Assembly: GCA_015039315.1 (NCBI GenBank)
Contig: WIDE01000054.1
Location: forward strand, 154,505 to 218,504
Source of the DNA: Clavulina sp. PMI_390
Lineage: Eukaryota > Basidiomycota > Agaricomycetes > Cantharellales > Hydnaceae
Direction of reading: 5' to 3'
DNA: 64,000 nucleotides
Part shown: positions 4,205 through 64,000 of the stretch, in pieces
Position numbering within the stretch: the stretch's first letter is position 1
Layout of the letters: every line of letters starts with the position of its first letter
Notes under the pieces: generated by a model
Databases searched by the model: none
Seen by the model: only the letters and a program-made list of their open reading frames with translations
Told to the model about the DNA's origin: nothing
Position numbers and translations under genes: made by a program

Positions 4205-6077
4205 CGTCGGGTCCTCCGAAAAGTCCTCTCCATCGTCCTTAAACGGTCATGATACCCAGTCAGTCTACGCACAATTTAGGGAGCTTAAATTGTGACATAC
4301 ATTGTTCAGATGCGGTGGTGTTGCCACGGACATGGCACTTGAGACGCGGGGGGATCCGTCAAGGGTTCAAGAGTGAAACAGGTGGTGCAGAAAGTGCAAG
4401 ACACCAAGGTCGGTGGGGCGCCCGGGCTCGGTCAAGGCGCAGTCCTTGGGACAAAGGTTGGTACGTGGATGCGAGTGCTGATCCTATCGGCACTGGCGAG
4501 TGACAGTGAGAAGCGGGAGTCGTTCGAGAGCTAGCACTAGCGCAAAATGAGAGAACCAGAGGAGGAGGAGGAATGCGACCCAGCGAGAGAGGAGAGGAAG
4601 GATGGGAGTGACTGTGTAACAGTGGCCGTGGCCGTGGCTGTGCGGGACCGGGCGCCGTTCAAGTGTCCCATCTCCATCAAGATGAATCATTGGCCATGTG
4701 TTTGCGCCTGATGGACGAGCCAGGACAAGACTTGTCCCCTTTATCATTATCATCCCAGAACTGGCTTCAAATCATTTCTTAGATCATGATCTACAGATTA
4801 CAAAACTACACAAACGCGCATACTTTTCCTAGCTGCGATCCGCCATAGCTAGCGATGGTTCACCATATGAGTCTCATATACTTGTTAATACCCTCTCATT
4901 CATTCTGCCACGCATGATGGACATCTATCCGGGTGCATGGATGATCCCGAAATTGGAGACGGCATAGATTCGGGCTCACCCTACCAACGACTTCCACGTA
5001 GTGCGGTGGTAGACGACCAACCACAAACTCTTTCAGGCGCTCAAACCGTGTCAGCGCTAATGCGATGAGTACAACATGGAGCTCCAGCTCCTATACATTC
5101 AGGCTGGTATCCATGCCGCTGTTGGTGCCGGCAAGCCGCCGAACTGCGCAAGGATAGAAGAGACTTGGCGACCAGGGTAATCAGCTCGGCGTCAGCCCGC
5201 TGCACATGCAACGTCAGCCTATCCGTCCCGGCGCCCGATGCGGAGCAGATGACGATAGGTAGATTTACGGCAGGTTTGTGACGTGGTACATCTGCGTCTG
5301 AATTTAGGAAGCAATTTATGACTCATTGTGCCAGCTGTTCATTGAGGAACCAGACTAACACAGCGAGTGCTACCCTCGATGGCCTTGAGGGCAGGGAGTA
5401 ATCCTACTTGGGGGGATGCAGGCATTGCAAATGATAGGCAGTATGACCTTCGCAGTATGACCTTCGGGAACTCCAGATAAAGGATATCATGACAGGAATA
5501 ACCAAGTGAACAGCTTGTCTAGGTTATGGTGAAGATCAAGCAACCAGGTATTCTCGGACAAGCCTAGAAGATGAGGCCCAATAGGCATCGCCAGGACGCT
5601 AAAAGCCAAGGTCCACATGACACCTCTTGGGGTCGATCTGGCTAGCTGAAAGTATAAACTGCGTCTGATGTGGGTTATGTTCAATCCTGTCGATTTTTAC
5701 AATTAGCCCTTCTTTCCGCGCCTCTGAGAAGCGGACTTCGTGAGGTAGATAACATAGAGAATGAGTTTGAGAGGGAGCCTGGCCTATAGCCCCCTGTGTG
5801 AATGTACGATCCAGCTGTAGGCATACACATGCCACTTCTGTTGCGTTGTGAGTAGTCCTTGTGAAAGAGAGGCTGAGCACAGCTTCGCACAGCGTCAACA
5901 AAAAAGAGAAAGTTGAGCAGTACTCAAGTGCCTTGAAGTATCGACCCAAATCCTGGGTCCGCATGCACATTAGTGATTGGATAAGAAAACAACGATAAGG
6001 ATAGCTTGTTCATCGAGTAGCATGCATAGAAGAATACTGGAAGGACAGAAGGGAGCATATTCATACGTCGAAGTAGT
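4205..6077. other. Gene-poor 1.9 kb between flippase and eL8
   Basis: The left part (4205-4800) is the presumed promoter and 5' leader region of the flippase. The right part (about 5700-6077) should be the 3' region of eL8. Open frames here, for example 5599-5970 on the minus strand, have no recognisable domain. A direct repeat GCAGTATGACCTTCG occurs twice in a row near 5440-5465. Only 4920-5300 looks remotely coding (see separate entry). Confidence 0.5.
4920..5300 (-). pseudogene. Possible relic of an F-box/LRR-like gene
   Basis: On the minus strand two neighbouring stretches read like protein but in different frames: one containing DRLTLHVQRADAELITLVAK (around 5200) and one containing LTRFERLKEFVVGRLPPH followed by VSPNLCRLQF (around 5000). 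The spacing of leucines and the phrase SPNLCRL resemble the loose leucine-rich part of Agaricomycete F-box proteins. No start, no complete frame and no F-box are visible. This could equally be chance, so it is offered only as a weak call. Confidence 0.2.
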
Positions 6078-7481
6078 CTACAGAGCTTTGGCAGCATCAG
6101 CAGAGATCGCCTTGCCAGCGGCCTTTGCACGAGCACGCAGTTTCGCCGCAGACTTATTACCACGAAGACCACCACCCCAGTGCTTACGAGCGTCTTCGTA
6201 TTTATCAGTACTAGGGAAGGATATTTACCGTTAGTGAGTGAGTATTGTGCGAAGAGGTCTCGATCACTCACAAATTAGCCTTGGCAGCTGAGACGAGGGT
6301 GGCAAGCTCTTTTTGATCCTCGCTCTTAACATCTTGCACAGCCAGAACAGCAGCCGTCTTCTTGTGCACCACGGTCCCCAAGCGCGCCTTGGACTTGACA
6401 ATCACATAGGGAACTCCCATCTTACGGCAGAGAGCAGGAAGGAAGATGACCAACTCGATAGGGTCAACATCGTCAGCAATGACAACAAGGTTGGCCTTCT
6501 TTGCTTCAACAAGAGCAACGATGTGGTTCAGGCCATACTTCACGAACAGAGGCTTTTTGGTCTCCTACCAAAACATGGTTGAGCGGATAGAAGATAATTG
6601 AGAGCATTTCGTCACATACCTTGTCCTTGGCCGCCTTGTCGGCAGCGGTAGCAGCAGCAACAGCATCAAGACGGGCCTTCTTCTCTTGTTTGGTTTCGGG
6701 GCGGTACCTGAAGGAGAGGTGTTATCAAAAGCTGGATTAGAAATCACAACTGAGAAGACGCACTTGTTAAGGAGCTTGAAGAGTTGAGTAGCGGTGTTCT
6801 TGTCAAGAGTGTGGCTGAACTGAGCGATGGCAGGAGGGACCTTCAGGCGCTGGTTGAGAATAACCTTCTGGCGCTGGAGGCGAACATATTCAGGCCACTT
6901 GACGAAACGGGTGAGGTCGGTGGTGGGTTGAATATCTTGGCCTGGAGGAGCCCAGCAGAGGATGAGTAATCCATAAAGGGGTGAGTGGAACGAGGTGACT
7001 TGCCAATGCCAAAGTTGCGGGGCCGGGCCTCGAAGAGAGGGTTTTTGACGACCTTGCCAGACTTGACACCAGCCGCAGCTGGGGCGCGAGCAGGGGTTTT
7101 GGCGGTCTTTTTGGCCTATTGAGGAGAGTGAATGGGATCATTGAGTCGAGGCGTTTAAGGTCGCATGTTTTGAGAGGAAGTGAAGCGTGAGCACGGATGC
7201 TCACGCCCACTCCCGCACGACCCAAACGGTGGCTCGGAGCTCTATTCGCCCGCTGCCTCTGGCGGAAACAGCGGGCGCCCAGTATTCCCGGCTTCATCAT
7301 CACACCACGCAGGGCAGCGCAACTCAGCCATCAGCAGCGATCTGACAAGAGGATGATGATTTCGATCATCCAGCCAGTAAACCAGCACTCTTCACACTGC
7401 ACGTATAACTGTATTATGAGCAGCGAGGGACCGCTGGGTCGCCGTCGTGGTAGTCGTAGACACTCTTCTCTCACTTACCAT
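6078..7481 (-). CDS. RPL8: 60S ribosomal protein eL8 (yeast Rpl8, human L7a)
   Basis: This is a large-subunit ribosomal protein of the L7Ae/L30e RNA-binding fold, acting in the nucleolus during 60S assembly and then in cytosolic ribosomes. The spliced product contains the family landmarks [95 protein letters not shown] and the tail [14 protein letters not shown]. It has roughly the usual length of about 260 residues. Six exons are needed. The first exon holds only the ATG (7479-7481), because GTAAGT follows it directly. The intron after GIG (near 7003) uses a GC donor, GCAAGT. The start is set by this first exon and by the protein's short basic N-terminus. Stop TAG at 6078-6080. Confidence 0.95.
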
Positions 7482-7678
7482 TGGGGCTGAGGATGCTGAA
7501 GCAGGGGCGAAGAAAGAAGACGATCAGTCAGGAGGAACCAGGATTGCAGTTTTACTTAGCGCGCTCGGAGCCGATGACTAGGCGCCGAGCACATGAGCCA
7601 AACATTTGATCCGCCAAAAATGGCAATCGCAAAACGAACAATAAATGCTATATAACTATACTGCTAATATGCGCAAGA

Positions 7679-9899
7679 CTAAGAGTTGGGGGTTATTCTC
7701 TCGAGCTGTGATTTCCAGCCCACCAAACGAGCAAACAAATCATCTCGCCGAGCTACCCAAGTGAACGTAACCTCATCCTCCTCCTCCCCACATCGGATGC
7801 TCAAACCACGCAAGAGTCCAGTTTTACGAACGGAGGTGATATTGGATAACGGGAAAGTTTGAATCCCTCCGGAACGCCCGGCGGGAATAAACTTCAGCTC
7901 CAACGGCGTCAAGGACAGCGAACCAGGCGCGGTTCCTTGTTGGCACAAATAGCTGGTATACTGGGTGGCTACGCTTATCGATGGCTGGAAATTTGTCTAT
8001 ATTTAATGCCACTCTGTCTCAGAATAGTTTGGCTCGCGATGAATGTTTTGAAGAGCGTACCTGACTTCGGGATGAAGCGTTTGATAACCGTACCCCATGA
8101 ACCAGTAGCTGCTCCACTCTCTCTATTTTTGAGAGCGGCCGCGAGGGAGTCCCGGTCTCAAGGGGTGAAGTTCCTGCAGCGCTATAGGTTGTGCTAATGC
8201 GATTGCTATGAGCACCTTCGGACGCCAGAGGTGAGCGTGAACGTTGGCCGCCTTTCCTCCGCTGAGGAACGACAGGGAGCCCTTTCGCGGTTCGGTCGAC
8301 AATCATCGCGATAGCGTGATCAGTATCAGTTGCGACATCTCCAAATGGCGCGGGGATTCTAGATGACGATACTCTAAGGCAAGGGGTCTGTCTTGAATCG
8401 AAATCAAATACTCACTTGCGTCGTTCTTCCGCGGTCATCGCAGCGATAACAGGGAGAACGAACCAAAATAAAACTCCAAAATTAAACAGTATGAGTTTGA
8501 ATATGATATATTGTGGGATGATAGCCACAATAAACAAGACAAGTATACTGATCTTCGGAAGTGGTTAGTATCAAGATGAACCTGCACAAGATTCTCTGCC
8601 TCACCACGAGATACCGGTGTGAAGCTGAAGGATTTCGCCACAAAAATATGTTACGCAGCCTCTCGTGAAGGTCTGCTAGATATTCCAAGATGACCACGGC
8701 CAGCCTTTTCCAATCATCGTCAAGTGCCTGCTTTTCGCGATCTTGCCGAGCCTTTTTGACGGCATCCTCAAATGTGGCAGGGGTGGAGGGACTAATGGGT
8801 CCATCAGAGGACGAAACAGCTTGAGCGACGGCTGCAAGATCCTTTGCCTTTCTGGCCATGGATATTTGTCGGAAGGATTGCCATGCGTCCCATATAGAAA
8901 AGTCCCCTTGTATAATATCGTAAACCGTGTTTGAGGTCCATGTTAGCGGTAAAATGCTCATGGTGTCCCCCAAAGCCTCGACTTCTAAGGCACGCTGTCT
9001 ACGTTGGCGTAGGTCTTCGCGGGTAGGGTAAGGGTCGAAGTATCGCTGGAGAAGGCCATAGGCAATTCGTGCAACGAATGCTAGGACAAGCCCGTCATAG
9101 AACAATAGCGTGAAGTACATGGAGCACATGATTGCGCTATTAACCGGATCCTGCCATGTGCTCCAGCTGTAGAGCTGCCTTATCCGCGGCACATATATGG
9201 GATAGCCCGCTAGGTAAAGTCGTTGAGAGGCAACAGTTACCTGACTGAGGGAAAAAGGTTTAATTGGCGTTGAACCTTCCTGGGGTAAATATGATAGAAG
9301 AGCCTACAAGGTGCTCCGATGTTATCAGGTTCTGGGTAAGGAAGCATACAAATACTTACTATTGCCGCCAGTCGAAACACTGAAGGCTCTAGCTCCTGAG
9401 AAGGAGGGTCACCCAAGCCTTCGATGGGACCGCTTTGCGCCGCTTCATGTGGCGATGGGCTCGCGGGTGAAGATGAAGCTTGTTCACCTTGGCTGGGGGG
9501 TTCCCCAGCTTTCCTCACAACGCCAGGTAGCTCGCTGCCATCGGGCGCCAACGGATCTGGGGGCAGGGCGGGTGGTAGCTCCTTTGATGGCAACTGAAAC
9601 TCTGTAACATGCTGTGCGGATGAGATTGTATGTTATGGTCACTGTCAAGGAGGGCTCGATGACGTGTTACTTACCGATGAGAATAGCTTCAGAAAGCGTT
9701 CTAATTCATCTTCTTCGAATATTCGTCTTATTTCTTCATCTGACGCATCCTCGTTGATATCGTCAGGATCCGCTAGGAGCGAATCCGGTGCAGAGTCCGC
9801 ATGAAGGGCATTGGACCTGGAGTCGCCAATCAGCCCCTCGAAGAACGCCCCAGGGAGATGTTGAGGACGTAAATGAGCACCTAAGTTTGAAGTTTCCAT
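7679..9899 (-). CDS. Membrane protein with C-terminal GRAM domain (GRAMD4-like fungal family)
   Basis: The spliced product begins METSNLGAHL, has an acidic and proline-rich N-terminal third, then a conserved block (RIRQLYSWSTWQDPVNS, a hydrophobic helix YFTLLFYDGLVLAFVARIAY, then YFDPYPTREDLRQRRQRA). A coiled or helical part and a strongly hydrophobic pair of segments around 8430-8540 follow. The protein ends with a GRAM domain (SYLCQQGTAPGSLSLTPL ... VAR-RDDLFARLVGW). GRAM domains bind phosphoinositides or other lipids, and this family is found in many fungi with membrane helices before the GRAM domain. About seven introns are required. The start is the first ATG of the conserved reading; an open frame upstream (to 10234) can be spliced on in frame but overlaps the promoter of the divergent Ies6 gene, so I left it out. 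The precise role is unknown. Confidence 0.7.
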
Positions 9900-54747: not shown

Positions 54748-54917
54748 AGCAAAGAATTGAGTAAAGCCCAGGAATGGATTGAGCCCCTTAACCTTTGTAA
54801 AAGTCTTTGTTCCCCATTTTTGGAGTTAGAGCCAGCCTGGAAGCCTTGCTCCAAAGAGTCTGTGTTTTCTGCATGTTGGTTGTCGGTGGCAAACAAATGA
54901 CAATAGTGTTCGTTCCA

Positions 54918-56878
54918 ATGGCTAAGATCGCTGAGTTGGAGGCTCAACTCACCGCGGCATTTACAAACTTGCCTGACAAAACTTCATTAAAATCTCTTCC
55001 TGCCCTTCTGTCGCTCGCTTCTAGTGTCGATACCCAAATTGCGTATCGAGCTATCTTTGCGTTCTATCGTGTTGGTGCTGTGGCTCTTGCATCCCCTTTG
55101 TACAACACCACGCAAAATGCACAGGTAGCCAAGATCACCAAATGGCTGGATCAGATTGTGGACCAATTTTCCGCTTCTCTCATTAAAAACTTCCAACATC
55201 ATGATGTAGACCTTAGGGTAAGTTGATATTCGCAAATTGGGCAGGGCTTTCTTACCTATATCACCTAGCTCGGGGCTTTAGATATATCTATGGCACTCTT
55301 CAAGAACCGCTGCGAGAACCTACATCGTCGCCATCTACCTCCTTTCCACCACAAACATCTACGGCTGATAGTGGACGCTTTTTTAACTACCACTCCAATC
55401 CCAGATATGTTGCAGCAGTTCTCTATGAAGTGGGTGAACGCATATCAGGATATTCGGTGGCTCGTAATGAAACAAGCCAAGTGCATTGGGTCTATCTTCG
55501 ATCGTGGAGGAAGTGACTGATGCAAAATCGTAGTTCCGTCCTCCAGGACAGCTCCCTAGATCGCGATCAGGTTGCTCGCTCAGTGCTAGCCCTATTGTCC
55601 CTCATCAAACCAATGCCATCACCGCCAATTTTCTGGTTGGCCTCGATATTCAATGCAAATAACTTGGATGAGGCGATTTCACCCAAGGACCTCCCCGCTG
55701 ATGACTGGAAAACATTCTTTGACGAAAGGGCAGAGACCGGAATGCATACATCAAATATCCGTCTCGGCAGGAAGATGACAGTGGGTCTAGCGGGGGTAGT
55801 ATCGTCTGCGTCTCTTGCAGACCAGCTTGCTACCACATGGACCCTCCTGGTCCCTTCTTTGGCAGCCTCTTCAGAGCTCTCGGCGCAGGGTCTGGAGGTA
55901 CTATCTACCTCGATGGAACTTAATAAGAAACTAGTTCTCAAACTCATGGACTGGATTTCGGGAAGCGTAGCCTATGGTAATGCATTTGTTATTTCTTGCC
56001 TCTATCAGCGCCTTCATGCACACTTAATGTAATAGGTGGTTCGGTTGGTATCCTTGCACTGAGGTTGATGTACAAATTACTTGTGCTCTTCAACTTGTGA
56101 GTTGAAGAATCAAGGCTATCTCCGTTTATTGCTTATCCTGTCCGACAGAGACTATCCAGATTTCTACACGCGGCTTTACGGCTATCTAGACTCCAACTGT
56201 TTTCACTCCAAGCATTCCTCACAGTTTCTGCGTTTACTAGCAGAATTTCTTCAATCGACGTATGTCAATCCAGCACCCACTCCCTCGTAGCATGCTGATT
56301 CCTATTGCTATTTAGTCACATTCCGACCAATCTCCTTGCTTCATTTGTCAAGAGATTGTCAAGAATGTCATTAACTGCCCCTCCATCAGTATTGGTTGTC
56401 ATTATACCGCTTGTGTACAACACGCTCCACCTCCATCCACAATTAATGGCTCTGATTCACAACCCTGCTAATATGATCACAGGTGAGCGGGTTATTTGCA
56501 AAGCAATGGTGTTTTTACTAAAGAGCAAGTTGTACAGATCCGTTTGATCCAGAAGAGGTATCACCATATACCACAAATGCCCTGAGCTCTTCGCTTTGGG
56601 AGCTGGTATCACTATGCAACCACCAAAATGGTGTTGTGGCCAGCCTAGCACAGATTTTTTCTGGCACATTTTCAAGACAGCCATTTGTGTTGAATGATTT
56701 CCTTGACCAATCATACAATACAGTGAGCTGATTACAACCTCTCATCAATATGCACACTAACACATGTTTCTAAATGCAGCTTTTCCGCTCAGAGCATAAG
56801 AAGATTTTCAGAATAGATCCCATAATATCCCCATCAATAGGTTCCCTCAGTTATTTCCAATGGGCTGATTTCAATTGA
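54918..56878 (+). CDS. NOC4: Nucleolar complex protein Noc4 (40S assembly)
   Basis: Noc4 works with Nop14 in the nucleolus for 40S ribosome maturation. The start MAKIAELEAQLTAAFTNLPD leads a helical-repeat N-terminal half (LPALLSLASSVDTQIAYRAI; FLTTTPIPDMLQQFSMKWVN). The conserved CBF/Mak21-type domain follows: KNQGYLRLLLILSDRDYPDF, FHSKHSSQFLRLLAEFLQST, IPTNLLASFVKRLSRMSLTA and PSVLVVIIPLVYNTLHLHPQ. Then come DPFDPEEVSPYTTNALSSSL, WELVSLCNHQNGVVASLAQI and FVLNDFLDQSYNTLFRSEHK. The gene ends RIDPIISPSIG and a short tail, TGA at 56876-56878. Some exon borders around 55230-55520 and 55990-56110 are unclear. The CpG-poor repeat region starts shortly after the stop, and the last residues are poorly conserved, so the very end could have been altered by nearby insertions. 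Confidence 0.88.
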
Positions 56879-58744
56879 TAGAAAGTTGTTGGTATATGCT
56901 TTTGTTGTCCCATATGTTAGATTCTAAGTGCCCAGACTCTGTCTCTGGGCAAATTCTCTGCCCTATATTGGATGGAAATTGGAAACAGTGCAAATGAGAA
57001 ATGGTTGATTATTGGTCATGAGTAGGCAAATTAAATGTCTGCCTCTACTATTGATTTATGTACTAGCTTGTGTTGGACAAACTATATTGTACTGGTCCTA
57101 CCTGAATTCTGCGGTAGGTTTCACAATGTTGTGAGCTGGAGGAGTCCAGCCTGGTGACCTTTTGATACTTGTATATGCTGGCCAAGGGCTTGGCATTTCT
57201 GAGGCATCATATCACAGTGGCTGTTCAGGCTTGCAATACCATATATAGGTTATCCCAGAGTTCAATAGATATACTCACATTATATGATTATATAGTTTGT
57301 AGATTGCCTAGCAAAAATTACAAAAAAATTGATATAGCCATTTAGTGGCTAATTACAACCAAGGATTTCATGATTTCTAAATCACAGCATTACTGGATAG
57401 TGCGTTGATTTGGGTAATTATAACTGGAATTGTAACTCTTCAGATAATCCAAGCTAAATAAAACATGACACTGCAGTAATTTCATGCATGAATTGCTTCA
57501 CTAGAGCATTTTTCACCAGTTAATCACCAAAAGCAGTACCTCAATTATACAAATTCCAAACCAATCAAGGACACAGGGTGTTGTGTCTATGGGGTGCTGA
57601 TGGATTTTGCTTGGGAGAGTGAGTGGAGCAAGCCTATAATGCCTCACAAGAGCCAATAGGCTAGGGGGTGTTGTGATGTGGTTGGTTCTGACTGTACCCT
57701 CCAATAATGCAACCAGGGCCTTTCTCAATATGGCAGGGTTCCTGGGCTCTGGCATGCCCAGAGACACACTGTCCAATATAGCATGTAACCACCACATTCT
57801 CCCATACAGTCATCTACCACTCAAGGAAATAACTTATTATGTTTGAACTGCTGAAGGTTTTTGCTTGAAGCTACATTTGTAGGCAAGATGCATAAGTAGC
57901 CCTTATATGCTTCATAAGGGCCAAAAAACTGGGAGTTGGGGTTAGAGGCAGCAGTGATTGGAGTGGATGGGTTGATGATCCAAATTTGCCCTCAATGAGA
58001 GGGTGACAATCTATGTTACACCAATATTGCCCAACCCACCAAGGCATTGGAAGTTTTCAGCACACTTAGTTTGGTGCAATATATGGCTATACTTGATATG
58101 CTTGTGGCTTTTGTTAGGCATAAATGTGCAGATACTGCTTTGTAAACACTACAAGAAGAGGTGCTACTGCTGTCCACTTCCCCCCAATTTTCTGGGATTC
58201 ATGCATATATTGAGCTTAGTTGGCTAGATGTCATAACAAGATTGATGGTATATACATTCCCACAGAGCTCAGATCATGCAATTCCAGCTAGAGCAAGGGG
58301 AACAATGAGAATGATATGCATTGGTCTCTCACACTCAAGAAAATCTGCTTCCCACATGCCATATCAAGATTAAACAAAGTAGAGGTATCTGGAAAGCTCA
58401 TAAGTTGCTTGGTCAAATTATAGAAGCCTCTTAGTAAAGGCACTTCCAGAGCCTTGAGATACATTTAGAGTTACCCAGAGGGCAATGCCAAATGGGTGTA
58501 AACACACCTAAAAACTCTTCACAGCCTTTATTTTCTTATTGATTTCCTTGAAACTTTGCAAAAAAGTGCATTATTGCCATTGCAGCTATAATGATTTTCA
58601 TGATTTTTTTAGATTCAAAGAACTGGTAATGGGACCATTTTTCTCAATGAGGGTGACATTCTCAAAGAGTGGTAGATGACTGTACCTGAAGCCATGTAGC
58701 TTACAAGGTGCCCAAGATCTCATGGGAATCCCAGGTTTGATTGA
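56879..58744. other. CpG-free, AT-rich decayed region without intact gene
   Basis: From about 57060 on, CG dinucleotides nearly vanish (two up to 58744 by my reading) while TG and CA are common. No open frame shows a domain; the longest (minus, 57513-57797) has no recognisable match. The region adjoins copia-type LTR fragments and is probably older transposon material that has decayed beyond recognition. Confidence 0.6.
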
Positions 58745-58930
58745 ATCTATGGGAAGTGTCATGTGATTGCATATTGTATTTATATTGTTTGTTCCAGAGC
58801 AGACTTGCCTCAACCCTTCATCTAGTTGTGGTTAAGTCCCCAGTGTGATCTCCACTGTCTGTTAGGTGCCTTTGCTAGGAGCTGGTCTTGTTCTGTCAAG
58901 ACTTTGTCCCAACACCAGTTCACTGCCACA
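58745..58930 (+). repeat. Copia-type LTR, copy a (decayed)
   Basis: The sequence from TATGGGAAGTGTCATGTG to GTTCACTGCCACA matches the other LTRs of this cluster and stops exactly before the primer site. The 5' TG is damaged. CG positions of copy c appear here as TG or CA. Confidence 0.75.
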
Positions 58931-58942
58931 GGTTATGGGCCC
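58931..58942 (+). other. Primer-binding site of copy a (GGTTATGGGCCC)
   Basis: These 12 bases follow the LTR end directly. They are complementary to an internal, anticodon-stem part of initiator tRNA-Met, the half-tRNA type of primer known from Drosophila copia. Confidence 0.65.
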
Positions 58943-59574
58943 ATTGCCCTAGCTGCTTGCCTACATATAACACCTAGTGCTCTATTGTGCCAGAGTTCCA
59001 GACAATTTGGTGGAGAACTCAGCTTTTTTCAGCCACTTCTTCATATCTGAGGTCAACAGGCCTCAGCCACTCTCTGTTGGTTCAACATCGCTCTATTGCT
59101 CTGCCTCTCTGCTTCTTTGTTGCACTCTGGTGCTCCCATTGTTTTTCACTTTGTTTCTGGCTCTCACTCCTCTCACCCTAAGCTCAACCTGACCTGTCAA
59201 ATTACACTCTGGCTCAGAGAAGCACAGTGAGTTCTACAGAGGCTTGAGAGCTGCTTTCTTTAGTTTTAAGGCCACCAGGCCTTCCTACATCAAGGACTTT
59301 GCCAATGAGATCCTCATGTCCTTGATCCTCACCAATTGCCCTGAACTCATCTCTGCTGTCCTTGCAAGCAACCACATGTGTAAGATGTCAACAAGCAGTT
59401 CAGCTAGAATGAGGGTCTCAGAGACACTTCTGCTGCAGCTATGCAATCCTTGGCCTCTGGCACTTCTCCATTTTTGTCTGATACCTGCTCTGATGCCAAT
59501 CACTCTACCAAGGCTTGCTACAAGCTTGCCATCATGGTTGAAATGCTGTCAAAAGTGCTACCAAGGGCAAGTGG
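58943..59574 (+). mobile_element. Broken copia-like gag fragment, copy a
   Basis: The leader resembles that of copy c. The first part of gag is deleted; readable pieces are FKATRPSYIKDFANEILMSL, NCPELISAVLASN and a knuckle remnant NHSTKACYKLA. Frames shift and stops interrupt. The fragment ends where a minus-strand LTR begins. Confidence 0.7.
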
Positions 59575-59739
59575 TGTAGCAGTGGAGCTGGATGAAGTCT
59601 TGGCCAAGACGAGCAAGGGCACCCAGTCAAGATCACACTGGAGAGTTAGCCACAACTAGATGAAGAGTTGAGGTGAGTCCACTCCAGAACAAACAATTAT
59701 AAACACACCACATGCAAAACTCACCTGACACTTCCCACA
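59575..59739 (-). repeat. Copia-type LTR, copy d (inverted, decayed)
   Basis: Read on the minus strand it starts TGTGGGAAGTGTCAGGTGAG and ends CTCCACTGCTACA, parallel to copies b and c. It follows the end of the minus-strand pol relic and is therefore that element's 3' LTR. Confidence 0.75.
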
Positions 59740-60333
59740 TTCCTGCTTCACAAAATCTCTTGAGACACAAGTCCAAGCAGAGAAATTCCACATTGATGAC
59801 TAGTTGTCTCAGGTGACTTGGTGAGAATATCAGAATGCATGAGAGTGGAGATGTATTCCAACCTGACATAACCACATGTACTTGGTGTGGAGATGGCACA
59901 TCTTGCTGAAGTATTCAGGATTGTTGCCAACACAAATAGCAGACTGATCCATGAGAGTGGCAGACTGAGGATATCCAAGTTCTTGACTGAACAGCCTATA
60001 CCAAACTGCATCAGACCCACCATCAACAGCTATAATAAGCTCAGTCTCTGAGGATTTGGCCACAACATCTTGGCATTTGCTGTGCCAATTCACCAAATTC
60101 CCAAAAGGTGGAGTAACCAGTGGCAGAGTCCACAGCACCTGCATAGTCTGCAGAGTATACTGACACAGTCAGACCTGCAGAGCTAGGACCATAACAGAGC
60201 ATCAAGTCCTTGGTACCATTAAGGTACTGAAAAACATGCTGGACAGCTTTCCAGTGCACCATGCCTGGATTAGCATTAAAGCACCTGAGAGAACTTACAG
60301 CATGAGCTAAGTCTGGCTGAGTACCTGAGCCAG
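59740..60333 (-). pseudogene. Copia-type pol relic (end of reverse transcriptase and RNase H)
   Basis: Minus-strand reading gives PDLAHAVSSLRCFNANPGMV, HWKAVQHVFQYLNGTKDLML and VSVYSADYAGAVDSATGYST, the typical copia tail of reverse transcriptase leading into RNase H. After frameshifts, LVNWHSKCQDVVAKSS and IIAVDGGSDAVWYRLF follow. Everything upstream (protease, integrase, polymerase palm) is missing. Stops and shifts rule out function. Confidence 0.8.
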
Positions 60334-60531
60334 TGTTGTGGGAAGTGTCACATGTGATTTTTTGCATAGTGTATTTATATTTGTCTGTTCTGGAGTGGAC
60401 TTGCCTCAACTCTTCATCTAGTTGTGGCTAAGTCCCCTCTAGTGTGATCTCCACTGTCTGTTAGGTGCCTTTGCTAGGAGCTGGTCTTGGTCTGCCAAGA
60501 CTTCATCCCAATACCAGCTCACTGTGCTACA
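60334..60531 (+). repeat. Copia-type LTR, copy b (198 bp)
   Basis: It begins TGTTGTGGGAAGTGTCACAT and ends CACTGTGCTACA. It has one copy of the 53-base unit that is repeated in copy c and lacks CG dinucleotides. No primer site follows, so it is a solo or 3' LTR. Confidence 0.8.
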
Positions 60532-60690
60532 CTTGCCCCTGAGATGGCTTTCATGGACAAAGAGCCTTGGTTTTACACTTTCAGTGGGAGCTGACAGAGT
60601 TGCTAGGCTCAGTGGGAGCACTGTGCTTCAATCTGCAACCTCTGCATTGACTTCTCAGTCTCCTCAGCCTCTCCAAGGAGAGACTCTAGC
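60532..60690 (+). mobile_element. Short internal copia pol fragment between LTRs b and c
   Basis: The sequence encodes GADRVARLSGSTVLQSATSA and has the ...MAF...DKEP phrase that recurs in copy c at about 62400. It appears to be pol N-terminal material cut by insertion of element c. Confidence 0.45.
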
Positions 60691-60995
60691 TGTTGTTGGG
60701 AAGTGTCACGTGATTTTCGCGTAGTGTATTTATATTTGTTTGTTCCGGAGCGGACTTGCCTCAACTCTTCATCTAGTTGTGGCTAAGTCCCCTCCAGGTT
60801 AGTTAGCATCAATAAAACTCTTCATCTAGTTGTGGCTAAGTCCCCTCCAGGTTAGTTAGCATCAATAGAACTCTTCATCTAGTTGTGGCTAAGTCCCCTC
60901 CAGTGTGATCTCCACTGTCTGTTAGGTGCCTTTGCAGCTAGGAGCTGGTCTTGGTCTGTCAAGACTCCATCCCAACACCAGCTCACTGTGCTACA
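60691..60995 (+). repeat. 5' LTR of copia-like element c (305 bp) with triple tandem unit
   Basis: It begins TGTTGTTGGGAAGTGTCACG and ends CTGTGCTACA, with the primer site next to it. A 53-base unit beginning AACTCTTCATCTAGTTGTGG is present at 60763 and 60816, with a third partial copy at 60869. Two extra units account for its length against copy b. It holds TCACGTGA (60706-60713) and a TATTTATATTTG TATA-like stretch. Confidence 0.85.
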
Positions 60996-61007
60996 GGTTA
61001 TGGGCCC
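60996..61007 (+). other. Primer-binding site of element c (GGTTATGGGCCC)
   Basis: Identical to the sites after LTRs a and e, directly next to the LTR end CTACA. See the finding on half-tRNA priming. Confidence 0.7.
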
Positions 61008-61303
61008 ATCGCCCTAGCTGCTTGCCTAGATACATCACCTAGTGCTCTATTGTCTGCCAGAGTTCCAGACAATTTGGTGGAGAACTCAGCTTTTTTCAGG
61101 CACTTCTTCAAATCTGAGGTCAACAGGCCTCCATCACTCTCTCTTTTGCTTCAGCACACTCTCTGTTGCTTCAGCAATCTCTCTATCGCTCTAGGAGCCT
61201 CTCTGCTGCTCCACCACACTCTCTATCTCTCCAGCACTCCCTCTGGTGCTCCCTCCATCGTTTTTCGCCTCGTTTTTAGCCTCCACACTCCTCTCTGTCC
61301 ACC

Positions 61304-62436
61304 ATGTCCATCCCCAAGCTCACCTGGTCGAATTATGCCCTCTGGAGGCCTCTAATTGACATAGAGGTGGACAAGGGTGGAAAATCCTACTGGTTTGATG
61401 TTGCTGAGCCCACCTCTACCTCTGATGCCAAGGAGAGGCAATTCTGGCACACTGCTCGTCTAGATGCCTCTGCCACCATCAAGGAGCATCTCTCTCCTGA
61501 AATCCTGCCCCAATATCTTGATTCCAAGTACAGGCTTAACCCTAGGCTCCTTCTAGACGAATTGGCTTCGTCTTATGGCTGGGAGCTTTGCTGGGCGTCA
61601 TGTGGGGCTCATGGACATGCTCAACACTTGCCAGGGCTCAGAGGAGAAGCACAGTGACTTCTACAGTCGCTTGGGAGGCACTTTCCTTCGTTTTAAGGCC
61701 TCCAGGCCTTCCTCCACCAAGGACTTTGACAATGAGATCCTCATGTCCTTGATCCTATCCAACACAAATCGCCCAGAACTGATCTCTGCTGTCCTTGCAA
61801 GCAACCCCACATCTGTGGAGGATGTCAACAAGCAGTTCAGCCAGAATGAGGGCCTCAGAGACGCTTCTGCCTCTGTGGCTGCTGCTGCTATGTGATCCTC
61901 TGGCGCCTCTGGTGCTTCCCCATTGTCATCTGATGCCTGCTTGCTCTGTGATGGCAATCACTCAACCAAGGCCTGCTACAAGCTTGCCATAGGTTGAAAT
62001 GCTATCAAAAGCGCTGCTAAGGGCACAGGTCGCCCAGGCAGCTCAGGCAGTCCCCCAGCCTATCAAGAAGGCAGGAGCGGCAAGTCTTGCTTCCAATCCA
62101 CCCTCAAATTGCTCATCTGACTCCTGGAATGCTGATACAGGGCTACGGCAAGCATGAGCCCTCACAGGGCCTGCTTTAAGACCTATGGTCTGTCTAGCAC
62201 TCTTGTGGTGGCCAATGGCCAGGTAGTCAGAGCTGAGGGTGTAGGGACTGTGGAGTTTCACCCAGTCAATTTGGAAGGTCATAGCTTGCCCCCTGTTGAG
62301 TTTACAGGCGTTTTACATATACCCACTCTTAATCAAAACCTCTTGTCTGTTCTGACACTGAGAACCGCAATTTCAGCATTCTGATTGAGAAGGGGTCTAT
62401 GGCCTTCATCAGGGACAAAGAGCCTGTTGTAGAACT
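61304..62436 (+). pseudogene. Copia-like gag and protease region of element c, frameshifted
   Basis: Gag starts MSIPKLTWSNYALWRPLIDI, continues WHTARLDASATIKEHLSPEI and LLLDELASSYG. It then shifts frame near 61577, where two bases seem lost compared with element e, and goes on GRHVGLMDMLNTCQGSEEKH and FDNEILMSLILSNTNRPELI. A stop follows AAAAM (61892). The zinc knuckle CLLCDGNHSTKACYK sits at 61938. The protease region begins with DTG but is shifted, and is followed by SPHRACFKTYGLSSTLVVAN. The element is cut at about 62436 by LTR e. Confidence 0.8.
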
Positions 62437-62646
62437 TGTTCGCTTGTTCGGTATTTTGTAGATAGATGTTTGTGCCGGAGGGTCTTTTCCTTAACTCTTC
62501 TTCCGAGTTAAGGCTAAGTCCCCTCCAAGGTTAGCTAGCTTGACAATTAACTCTTCTTCCATCCAAGTGCTATCTAGTGGCCTTAGCAGCTGAGTCTCCC
62601 CTGAGTCCATTCAGACTCTATCCCAAAACCGGTCTACTCTGCTACA
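62437..62646 (+). repeat. 5' LTR of copia-like element e (about 210 bp)
   Basis: It begins near TGTTCGCTTGTTCGG and ends CTACTCTGCTACA before the primer site. It is clearly related to copies a-d (shared GGCTAAGTCCCCTCCA) but diverged, and still contains several CG dinucleotides. The exact left end is uncertain by a few bases. Confidence 0.7.
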
Positions 62647-62658
62647 GGTTATGGGCCC
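62647..62658 (+). other. Primer-binding site of element e (GGTTATGGGCCC)
   Basis: Third identical occurrence of the 12-base site, again directly after an LTR end. Confidence 0.7.
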
Positions 62659-62854
62659 ATCGCCCTAGCCGCTTGCCTACACATCAATCTAGTGCTCTAT
62701 CGCCTGTCCGAGTTCCAGGCGATTTGGAGCAGAACTCAGCTTTTTACAGCTCATTCTTTGTCTGTGGCACTACTGCCACCTCACACACTCTCTCGCTTCC
62801 AACCACTCATTTCTCTCTCGTCTTCCGCCCTATCTCCTCGATTCAACGCCCTCT

Positions 62855-64000
62855 ATGTCCTTTGACAAGCTCACTGCCTCAAACCATGCTCAGTGGCGTG
62901 AAAATATCGATTTGGAGCTCTCTGCTGATGGGAAGAACTACTACTTCACTGTCTCGCCTCCAGATGCCACTACACAGACGCCAAGGGAGCCAGGGAATGG
63001 GCTATTGCACGCCTAGCTGGAGTCTCTACCATCAAACGAGCTCTCAGCCCTGAGATTAGGTCTGCTTTTGCTGACTCTAAGTATGACCAGGACTGCAAGG
63101 CTCTCCTGGACGCAATCAAGGCCACCTATGGCGCTGGGGACTTCACTGGACGCCATATAGCCATCATGGGCCTGCTCCAGATCCACCAGGCGCCTGAGGA
63201 GCGTCACCACACCTTCAGTGGCGGGAGATGCCCTGCTTCGTCTCAAGGCCTCCTGGGGCTCCAGCTACACTCTGGACGATTTCCTGAAGGAGATCCACAT
63301 GTCCATTCTCCTCTCCAACACCAGATCCTCCCATCTCGTCCCAGCAGTGCTGGCTAGCAGCCCCAAGACTGTGGATGATGTCAACAGGCAGTTTGCTCAG
63401 AATGAGGGCCTCTCTGACGTCTCTGCTGGCGCTGCTGCGGCTGCTGCTGCTGCGGCCTCCCTGGCTCACCGGGAGGCCTCGGTGAGCTCTACTGGTGCCG
63501 CAAATGCCTCCGCTAATGCTACCGCTTCATCTCCGGGCTCTGGGAGCTCTCCAGCCGGCAATCAAGCCGCCAACCCGGTTTCCTTCCTCTGGTGATGGTT
63601 CCCATGCCACAGAGCGGTGCTACCGGCTCTCTGTGGGCCGGGAGGCTGTCAAGAACGCTCCCAGGCCCTCCAAGGGCAAGGGGAAGCCCAGGCGAGGCAA
63701 TGCTGCCCAGGAGCAAGACCTGGAGTCAGCCCAGGCTGTCCAGAAGGCAGGAGCGGCAAGTCTTGATCCCAGACCCTCACAAACTCGCTCAGCTGACACC
63801 TGGAACGCTGATACAGGCGCTAGTGCCCATATGAGCCCTCACAGAAGCTGCTTTCGGTCCTATGGGCCTTCTAGCACGCTTGTTGAGGTTGCCAATGGCC
63901 AGGTAGTCAAGGCTGCAGGAGTTGGGTCTGTGGAGTTCCATCCAGTCGATTTGGATGGCAAGAAACTAGCTCCTGTACTTATTACTGGCGTCTTACACAT
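62855..64000 (+). pseudogene. Copia-like gag-pol of element e, frameshifted and cut by the window edge
   Basis: Gag starts MSFDKLTASNHAQWRENIDL. The frame is lost near 62970, resumes with DAKGAREWAIARLAGVSTIK and ALLDAIKATYGAGDFTGRHI, shifts again near 63215, and continues DFLKEIHMSILLSNTRSSHL and NRQFAQNEGLSDVSAG with an alanine run. The knuckle region reads SGDGSHATERCYR, but the first two cysteines are lost in this frame. The protease motif WNADTGASAHMSPH is intact near 63800, followed by SSTLVEVANGQVVKAAGVGS. The polymerase part lies outside the window. Three shifts make it non-autonomous. Confidence 0.8.

Follow-up and report, generated by a model that had tools for sequence, protein, structure and literature searches.

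Organisation of the locus

The window analysed here, 64,000 nucleotides at the end of contig C252 (WIDE01000054.1, positions 154505-218504) in the 39.4 Mb, 301-contig genome assembly of Clavulina sp. PMI_390, contains a tract, 57060-60700, from which the dinucleotide CG (CpG) has almost vanished. This 'desert' and its surroundings are a pile of broken copia-type retrotransposon pieces and long terminal repeats (LTRs) plus a single-copy flank, lying beside a NOC4-like host gene, and the arguments set out below suggest that methylation of CpG followed by deamination probably emptied it. The features are listed in the order of the forward strand, with the number of CG left or the ratio of observed to expected CpG (o/e); here and later, copia-type and gag, like RNase H and primer site, are presumptive labels, assigned partly from features typical of such elements.

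54830-56876 (start approximate), plus strand: NOC4-like host gene of the CBF/Mak21 family, several exons (Pfam CBF, E 5.8e-13)
56877-58756, no strand: DNA almost without CG, either intergenic or an unrecognisable relic, 2 CG in 1880 bp (search of the own genome)
58757-59600 (boundaries approximate), plus strand: LTR a, then a relic in the gag position, 1 CG (repeat families D1-D3, D5-D8 and D11)
59601-59745 (boundaries approximate), minus strand: inverted LTR fragment, 1 CG (inverted repeats I1-I4)
59746-60335, minus strand: relic interpreted as part of a copia pol (its RNase H end), 0 CG (open reading frame 60041-60427, minus strand)
60336-60530 (boundaries approximate), plus strand: LTR b, 0 CG (93% identity to LTR c over 84 nt)
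60701-60994, plus strand: LTR c, with 5 CG confined to the first 52 bp; here the near-complete desert ends on the right
60995-62450, plus strand: interior of a copia-type copy, with the gag position and a Pol beta-barrel domain, 23 CG, o/e 0.24
62451-64000, plus strand: LTR d and the beginning of a further copy, with the mildest depletion (LTR 0.30, then 0.47), truncated by the contig end

The Pol beta-barrel domain is a Pol_BBD (PF22936) match at 62136-62384 (E 2.4e-12). The open reading frame at 59193-59579 matches no Pfam family and is called gag by its position alone, and the RNase H label for 59746-60335 is our presumption from a motif, Pfam having given no retroelement family there.

CpG depletion and its genomic baseline

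Base composition predicts 176 CG in 57060-60700 and exactly four are present (57112, 57403, 59089 and 59610), an o/e of 0.023 and a deficit with Poisson P ~5e-63 at a rate set by the genome's own o/e of 0.91. A first-pass annotation of the sequence had put the number at about four and had described TG and CA as abundant; both are indeed raised, to o/e 1.47 and 1.52, with TA at 0.70 and GC at 1.15, compared with 1.11, 1.11, 0.67 and 1.02, respectively, and a CG o/e of 0.90, in positions 1-54000 of the window. The loss affects all four contexts, leaving one ACG, no CCG, two GCG and one TCG.

The baseline was taken from 272 windows of 500 bp, drawn from positions 1-55000 of the window, eight other within-contig stretches and the start of the desert's own contig, N-containing windows being dropped. 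These have a mean CpG o/e of 0.91 (SD 0.15) and none falls below 0.43; 15 scattered 1.5-kb stretches elsewhere in the genome (20 were requested, five contigs being too short) lie at 0.72-0.97. In the samples taken, depletion is thus seen only in repeats and the DNA flanking them.

The desert is somewhat AT-rich (GC content 0.44) and lies near a contig end, and most of the related copies described below also lie near contig ends. This would suit a chance effect of composition, selection against CG in AT-rich DNA or faulty assembly at contig ends. Explanations of this kind are very improbable. The first-pass annotation had proposed computing CpG, TpG and CpA ratios across the contig, and had stated that a CpG ratio no lower than in other AT-rich intergenic DNA of the genome would refute its reading. 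The eight baseline windows with GC below 0.45, however, have CpG o/e of 0.69-1.12 (no baseline window has GC below 0.42). CpG is thus retained in AT-rich parts of this genome, and AT-richness does not explain the desert. Moreover, conversion of CG to TG or CA is directly visible in aligned copies, one related CpG-poor tract is interior to its contig (C173), and the loss runs on into the coding exons of NOC4.

Extent of the loss and the NOC4 gene

The left edge of the desert had originally been placed at 57060. This is too far to the right, as strong loss is evident already from ~56500, inside the NOC4 gene, whose last exons (56500-56876) retain 3 CG (o/e 0.20; Poisson P 6e-4 against the baseline), compared with an o/e of 0.72 further upstream (54830-56250). 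The erosion therefore extends into a core gene. When joined by hand, these last exons match Noc4 in the structure 6rxt over residues 2-172 of 187 (E 9.7e-43), i.e. the protein is still alignable to Noc4 although the exons encoding this part are CpG-depleted.

Coincidence of the desert with transposon relics, also claimed in the first-pass annotation, holds from 58757 onwards; the preceding 56877-58756 is single-copy apart from two weak matches in the own genome, at 57668-57805 (73% over ~140 bp) and 58750-58798 (85% over ~50 bp). Similarly, near-complete loss does stop within LTR c, as had been proposed, but partial loss (o/e 0.24-0.47) continues to the contig end. Across successive pieces the CpG o/e is accordingly graded, from 0.02 in 58757-59600 and 0 in LTR b to 0.24 in 60995-62450 and 0.47 in 62646-64000.

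Related copies elsewhere in the genome

Matches to the desert were found on seven other contigs, from each of which one stretch was fetched (L019-L025); C235, which matched in a later search, was left out. On six of the seven the copies sit in CpG-poor tracts in which most 500-bp windows have an o/e of 0-0.4, and on five of those six the ratio recovers, at a distance from the copies, to about 0.7-1.2. One stretch, L020, is low (0-0.61) over its entire readable length, and in another, L021, 7830 of 9900 bases are N and the remainder is mixed.

Depletion is not common to all transposon-like DNA: among six sampled stretches with an RVT_1 match, five have a CpG o/e of 0.78-1.09 and one (L037) 0.57. 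We considered using these, as young intact transposons, for an argument against repeat-induced point mutation (RIP) and dropped it, since two of the six were searched and no other copy above 73% identity was found, so that they could escape RIP too. The genome also contains other reverse-transcriptase (RVT_1) elements or genes, whose open frames are long and reach 2881 aa.

Two further features of the elements were seen in the window. LTR c contains a 53-bp unit three times head to tail (60763-60921; units at 60763, 60816 and 60869) that is single in LTR a and LTR b. The sequence GGTTATGGGCCC occurs just inside LTRs, at 58931, 60996 and 62647, and seems able to pair with the anticodon region of initiator tRNA, as primer sites of copia-type elements do, so that it may mark such a site; a tRNA scan with bacterial settings gave no tRNA gene within the window with which to compare it.

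Nature of the change between copies

Alignments were made among ten segments, three from the window and seven from the other loci, and the resulting pairs are not independent. Columns adjacent to gaps were dropped, as were alignments of fewer than 80 columns from both the pairwise counts and the strand test. Opposite 526 aligned CG the partner copy has CG in 164 cases, TG in 162, CA in 131 and another state in 69, compared with 2197 of 2691 kept for GC, the control in the same alignments. Change to T between copies amounts to 29% at CpG, as against 6.7% at CpA, 5.2% at CpC and 3.9% at CpT. When 60701-62470 is set directly against 58700-60700, 17 CG correspond to nine TG, five CA, two GG and one AG, a minority of the losses being of other kinds. 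There is no clear preference for TCG, which was lost at 81 of 90 sites compared with 216 of 257 for other CG (Fisher P 0.22; the counts come from 113 alignments and are not independent).

The strand test was confined to sites at which the partner has CG, states other than CG, TG and CA being dropped. None of the 29 scored sites in 58700-60700 is kept; 14 are TG and 15 CA, so both strands are affected, and runs of change on one strand are absent (z 0.57). The ten segments together keep 116 of 278 sites, with 76 converted to TG and 86 to CA, and consecutive TG or CA are about as frequent as a random order would give (z -1.31 to 1.47 across the segments).

These results bear on two forms of RIP. 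The classical, CpA-directed form known from Neurospora would likewise produce C-to-T change in gene-adjacent repeats. It should, however, consume CA and raise TA; in the desert TA (0.70) is flat relative to the baseline (0.67) and CA is raised to 1.52 rather than lost, and between copies CpA changes to T far less than CpG does. Because the dinucleotide counts contradict it, CpA-directed RIP is effectively excluded. A CpG-directed, RIP-like process, in which repeats would be detected during sexual reproduction and suffer bursts of CG mutation that spill over into the flanks, long-lived methylation being unnecessary, would share the CG target. Single RIP cycles are strand-biased, and TG and CA alternate randomly along each segment here, which argues against it. 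The view that loss of CG alone indicates methylation and deamination, or a CpG-directed RIP-like process, and not CpA RIP, already put forward in the first-pass annotation, is thus supported by the CG loss, the gain of TG and CA, the flat TA and the changes on both strands.

Tempo of the loss

The pair set comprised alignments of at least 100 columns, at least 80 of them usable. For the ratio of CpG to other change we used non-overlapping pairs with at least 90% non-CpG identity, and subtracted TG/CA double changes from the non-CpG differences. Among closer copies the sharing of CpG drops as non-CpG divergence grows, with 16 of 22 shared at 0.9% and 15 of 27 at 1.8%, and by divergence bin it is 31% of 186 below 5%, 0 of 69 at 5-10% and 2% of 61 at 10-15%. 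At CpG sites the difference is 0.83 and at other sites 0.026, which makes CpG change 32 times as large (bootstrap 22.8-51.3) in a small sample of 23 CpG sites and 17 pairs; corrected for saturation, the ratio becomes 38 and 37 in the largest two of the close pairs and, in a likewise small sample, 94 when pooled. Such an excess, with CpG changing some 30 times more than the rest, is also what CpG-directed RIP-like mutation would produce.

DNA methyltransferase genes

Absence of a DNA methyltransferase gene would have told against methylation. A profile search of the genome gave six matches to the cytosine methyltransferase family PF00145, at four loci. L015 encodes a relative of DNMT5: its methylase part matches 7r76, which we take to be a Cryptococcus structure, with E 1.2e-73 and has the motif GTSCVDYS in common with it, and its SNF2 part matches with E 2.3e-97. 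L017 has a DNMT1-RFD domain (Pfam, E 1.7e-8), the motif GPPCQG and a match to DNMT1 (E 3.9e-6). In L018 one exon is DNMT1-like (E 2.2e-5) and others carry Pfam methylase pieces; its cysteine codon seems, as we read it, to be split by a GC-AG intron. An SRA domain protein is also encoded (E 1.5e-11).

The fourth methyltransferase-like gene, L016 (G000:C248:76500-86400, minus strand 4245-9047), has SPPF where the PPC site with the catalytic cysteine is expected, and is possibly an inactive or divergent methyltransferase. An upstream piece of 205 aa has a weak, below-cut-off resemblance to the sacsin-type ATP-binding domain, and only two protein relatives of it were found.

In Basidiomycota, DNMT1-RFD and DNMT5 have been tied to CG methylation (PMC7862722, a review, and PMC13297926; these and the other papers cited are drawn on in excerpt). 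As far as it is described there, the Basidiomycota set of PMC7862722 agrees with the methyltransferases found here.

Origin of the desert

CpG methylation of the transposons and their flanks, followed by deamination, would in our view explain the desert, with a probability of about 0.77. The relics would probably be kept in CpG-methylated silent chromatin, where methyltransferases of the kind found in basidiomycetes, DNMT1 with its RFD domain and DNMT5, would keep the cytosines of CG methylated on either strand. The presumed mutating step, spontaneous deamination of 5-methylcytosine to T, would yield TG, or CA when it occurs on the opposite strand, until CG was nearly gone. The order of insertion would be reflected in the gradient, the pieces taken as older being nearly CG-free and those taken as younger partly eroded. 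Methylation would also have spread beyond the elements, to the single-copy DNA beside them and to the last NOC4 exons. Such spread is needed because, in the account available from PMC4014442, methylation and deamination, unlike RIP, are neither aimed at repeats nor prone to leak into flanking DNA.

That account is one of several points that weigh against methylation and deamination. The sharing of CpG climbs again in the two most diverged bins (11% of 47 and 28% of 40), which counts against a simple clock. The CpG excess in mammals is roughly 10-15-fold, and the ~32-fold excess found here, being above that level, may point to deficient repair or to an active mutator. One pair of copies with zero non-CpG differences in 98 columns shares one of five CG, as a burst would give. 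Among the enzymes, the RFD piece of L017 is weak against solved DNMT1 structures (E 0.017), and for another exon of L018 no methyltransferase was found among solved structures. The TET/JBP, MBD and copia reverse transcriptase (RVT_2) families were not found in the genome, although control genomes were equally silent and this is therefore uninformative; a search for the UDG family gave one weak match, at a locus without a clear glycosylase by eye, from which no conclusion is drawn. An earlier report that found no RIP in Agaricomycotina, as noted in PMC6980582, may be listed on the same side and does not touch deamination.

Some of these observations would suit a CpG-directed RIP-like process, above all the near-identical pair with its heavy CG difference. 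Loss in the single-copy flank and in NOC4 likewise resembles RIP leakage, which the excerpt of PMC4014442 assigns to RIP and not to deamination, and comparable signatures have been termed RIP or RIP-like in what we cite of the work on Ganoderma (PMC4457147) and Rhizoctonia (PMC4014442). Nevertheless, the loss is graded through successive pieces (0.02, 0.24, 0.47) rather than all-or-none, and RID is absent in the three basidiomycetes covered in the cited part of PMC4352252; in the present genome L016, the unclassified fourth methyltransferase gene, could be a RID relative. Graded loss and the lack of strand runs lead us to lean towards methylation and deamination, and the RIP-like process appears unlikely. 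We regard as slightly more doubtful still the idea that an active CpG-directed mutator, or failure of T:G repair in silent chromatin, destroys CG in repeats at least 30 times faster than other change, eroding the tail of the neighbouring ribosome-biogenesis gene with its protein still alignable.

Comparison with known systems

The locus offers a readable case for an open question in basidiomycetes, i.e. passive decay of methylated CpG versus RIP-like attack in transposons. Its copies differ in age and, among the closer ones, share fewer CpG the more they have diverged, which offers a clock for testing decay against attack, and the tail of NOC4 suggests that a neighbouring core gene carries part of the cost. 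We found no report in the open-access literature of a graded series of CpG loss beside a NOC4 gene, NOC4 itself not having been a search name.

The process has already been described in related fungi, and the present region is a further, unusually complete case. CpG-biased C-to-T mutation of basidiomycete transposons is reported in the excerpts of PMC4352252, for Ganoderma (PMC4457147), where nearly all affected elements are methylated, and for Tricholoma (PMC6980582). As presented there, these cases share with ours a CpG signature in repeats and CpG-type (Masc2/DNMT1-type) methyltransferases; they differ in that the loss here forms a near-complete local desert (o/e 0.02), is graded among pieces, reaches into NOC4 and is known from sequence alone.

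CpG-to-TpG polymorphism that includes genes has also been described (PMC4014442, PMC5870257, as excerpted). The hypermutation of Rhizoctonia solani AG8 (PMC4014442) has, like the desert, a CpG-to-TpG bias that is commoner near repeats and resembles leakage, but according to the cited part it is a polymorphism between nuclei that affects genes and repeats alike, whereas in Clavulina the loss is fixed in repeat-bearing tracts and the sampled scattered stretches are undepleted. TpCpG-directed mutation in Microbotryum and other Pucciniomycotina, as cited in PMC4014442 and PMC4352252, likewise has its CG target in transposons, and differs in context, there being no clear preference for TCG here. 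The RIP of Pezizomycotina, as outlined in the same two sources, shares with the present case C-to-T change in repeats; its CpA target and RID enzyme set it apart from the pattern seen here.

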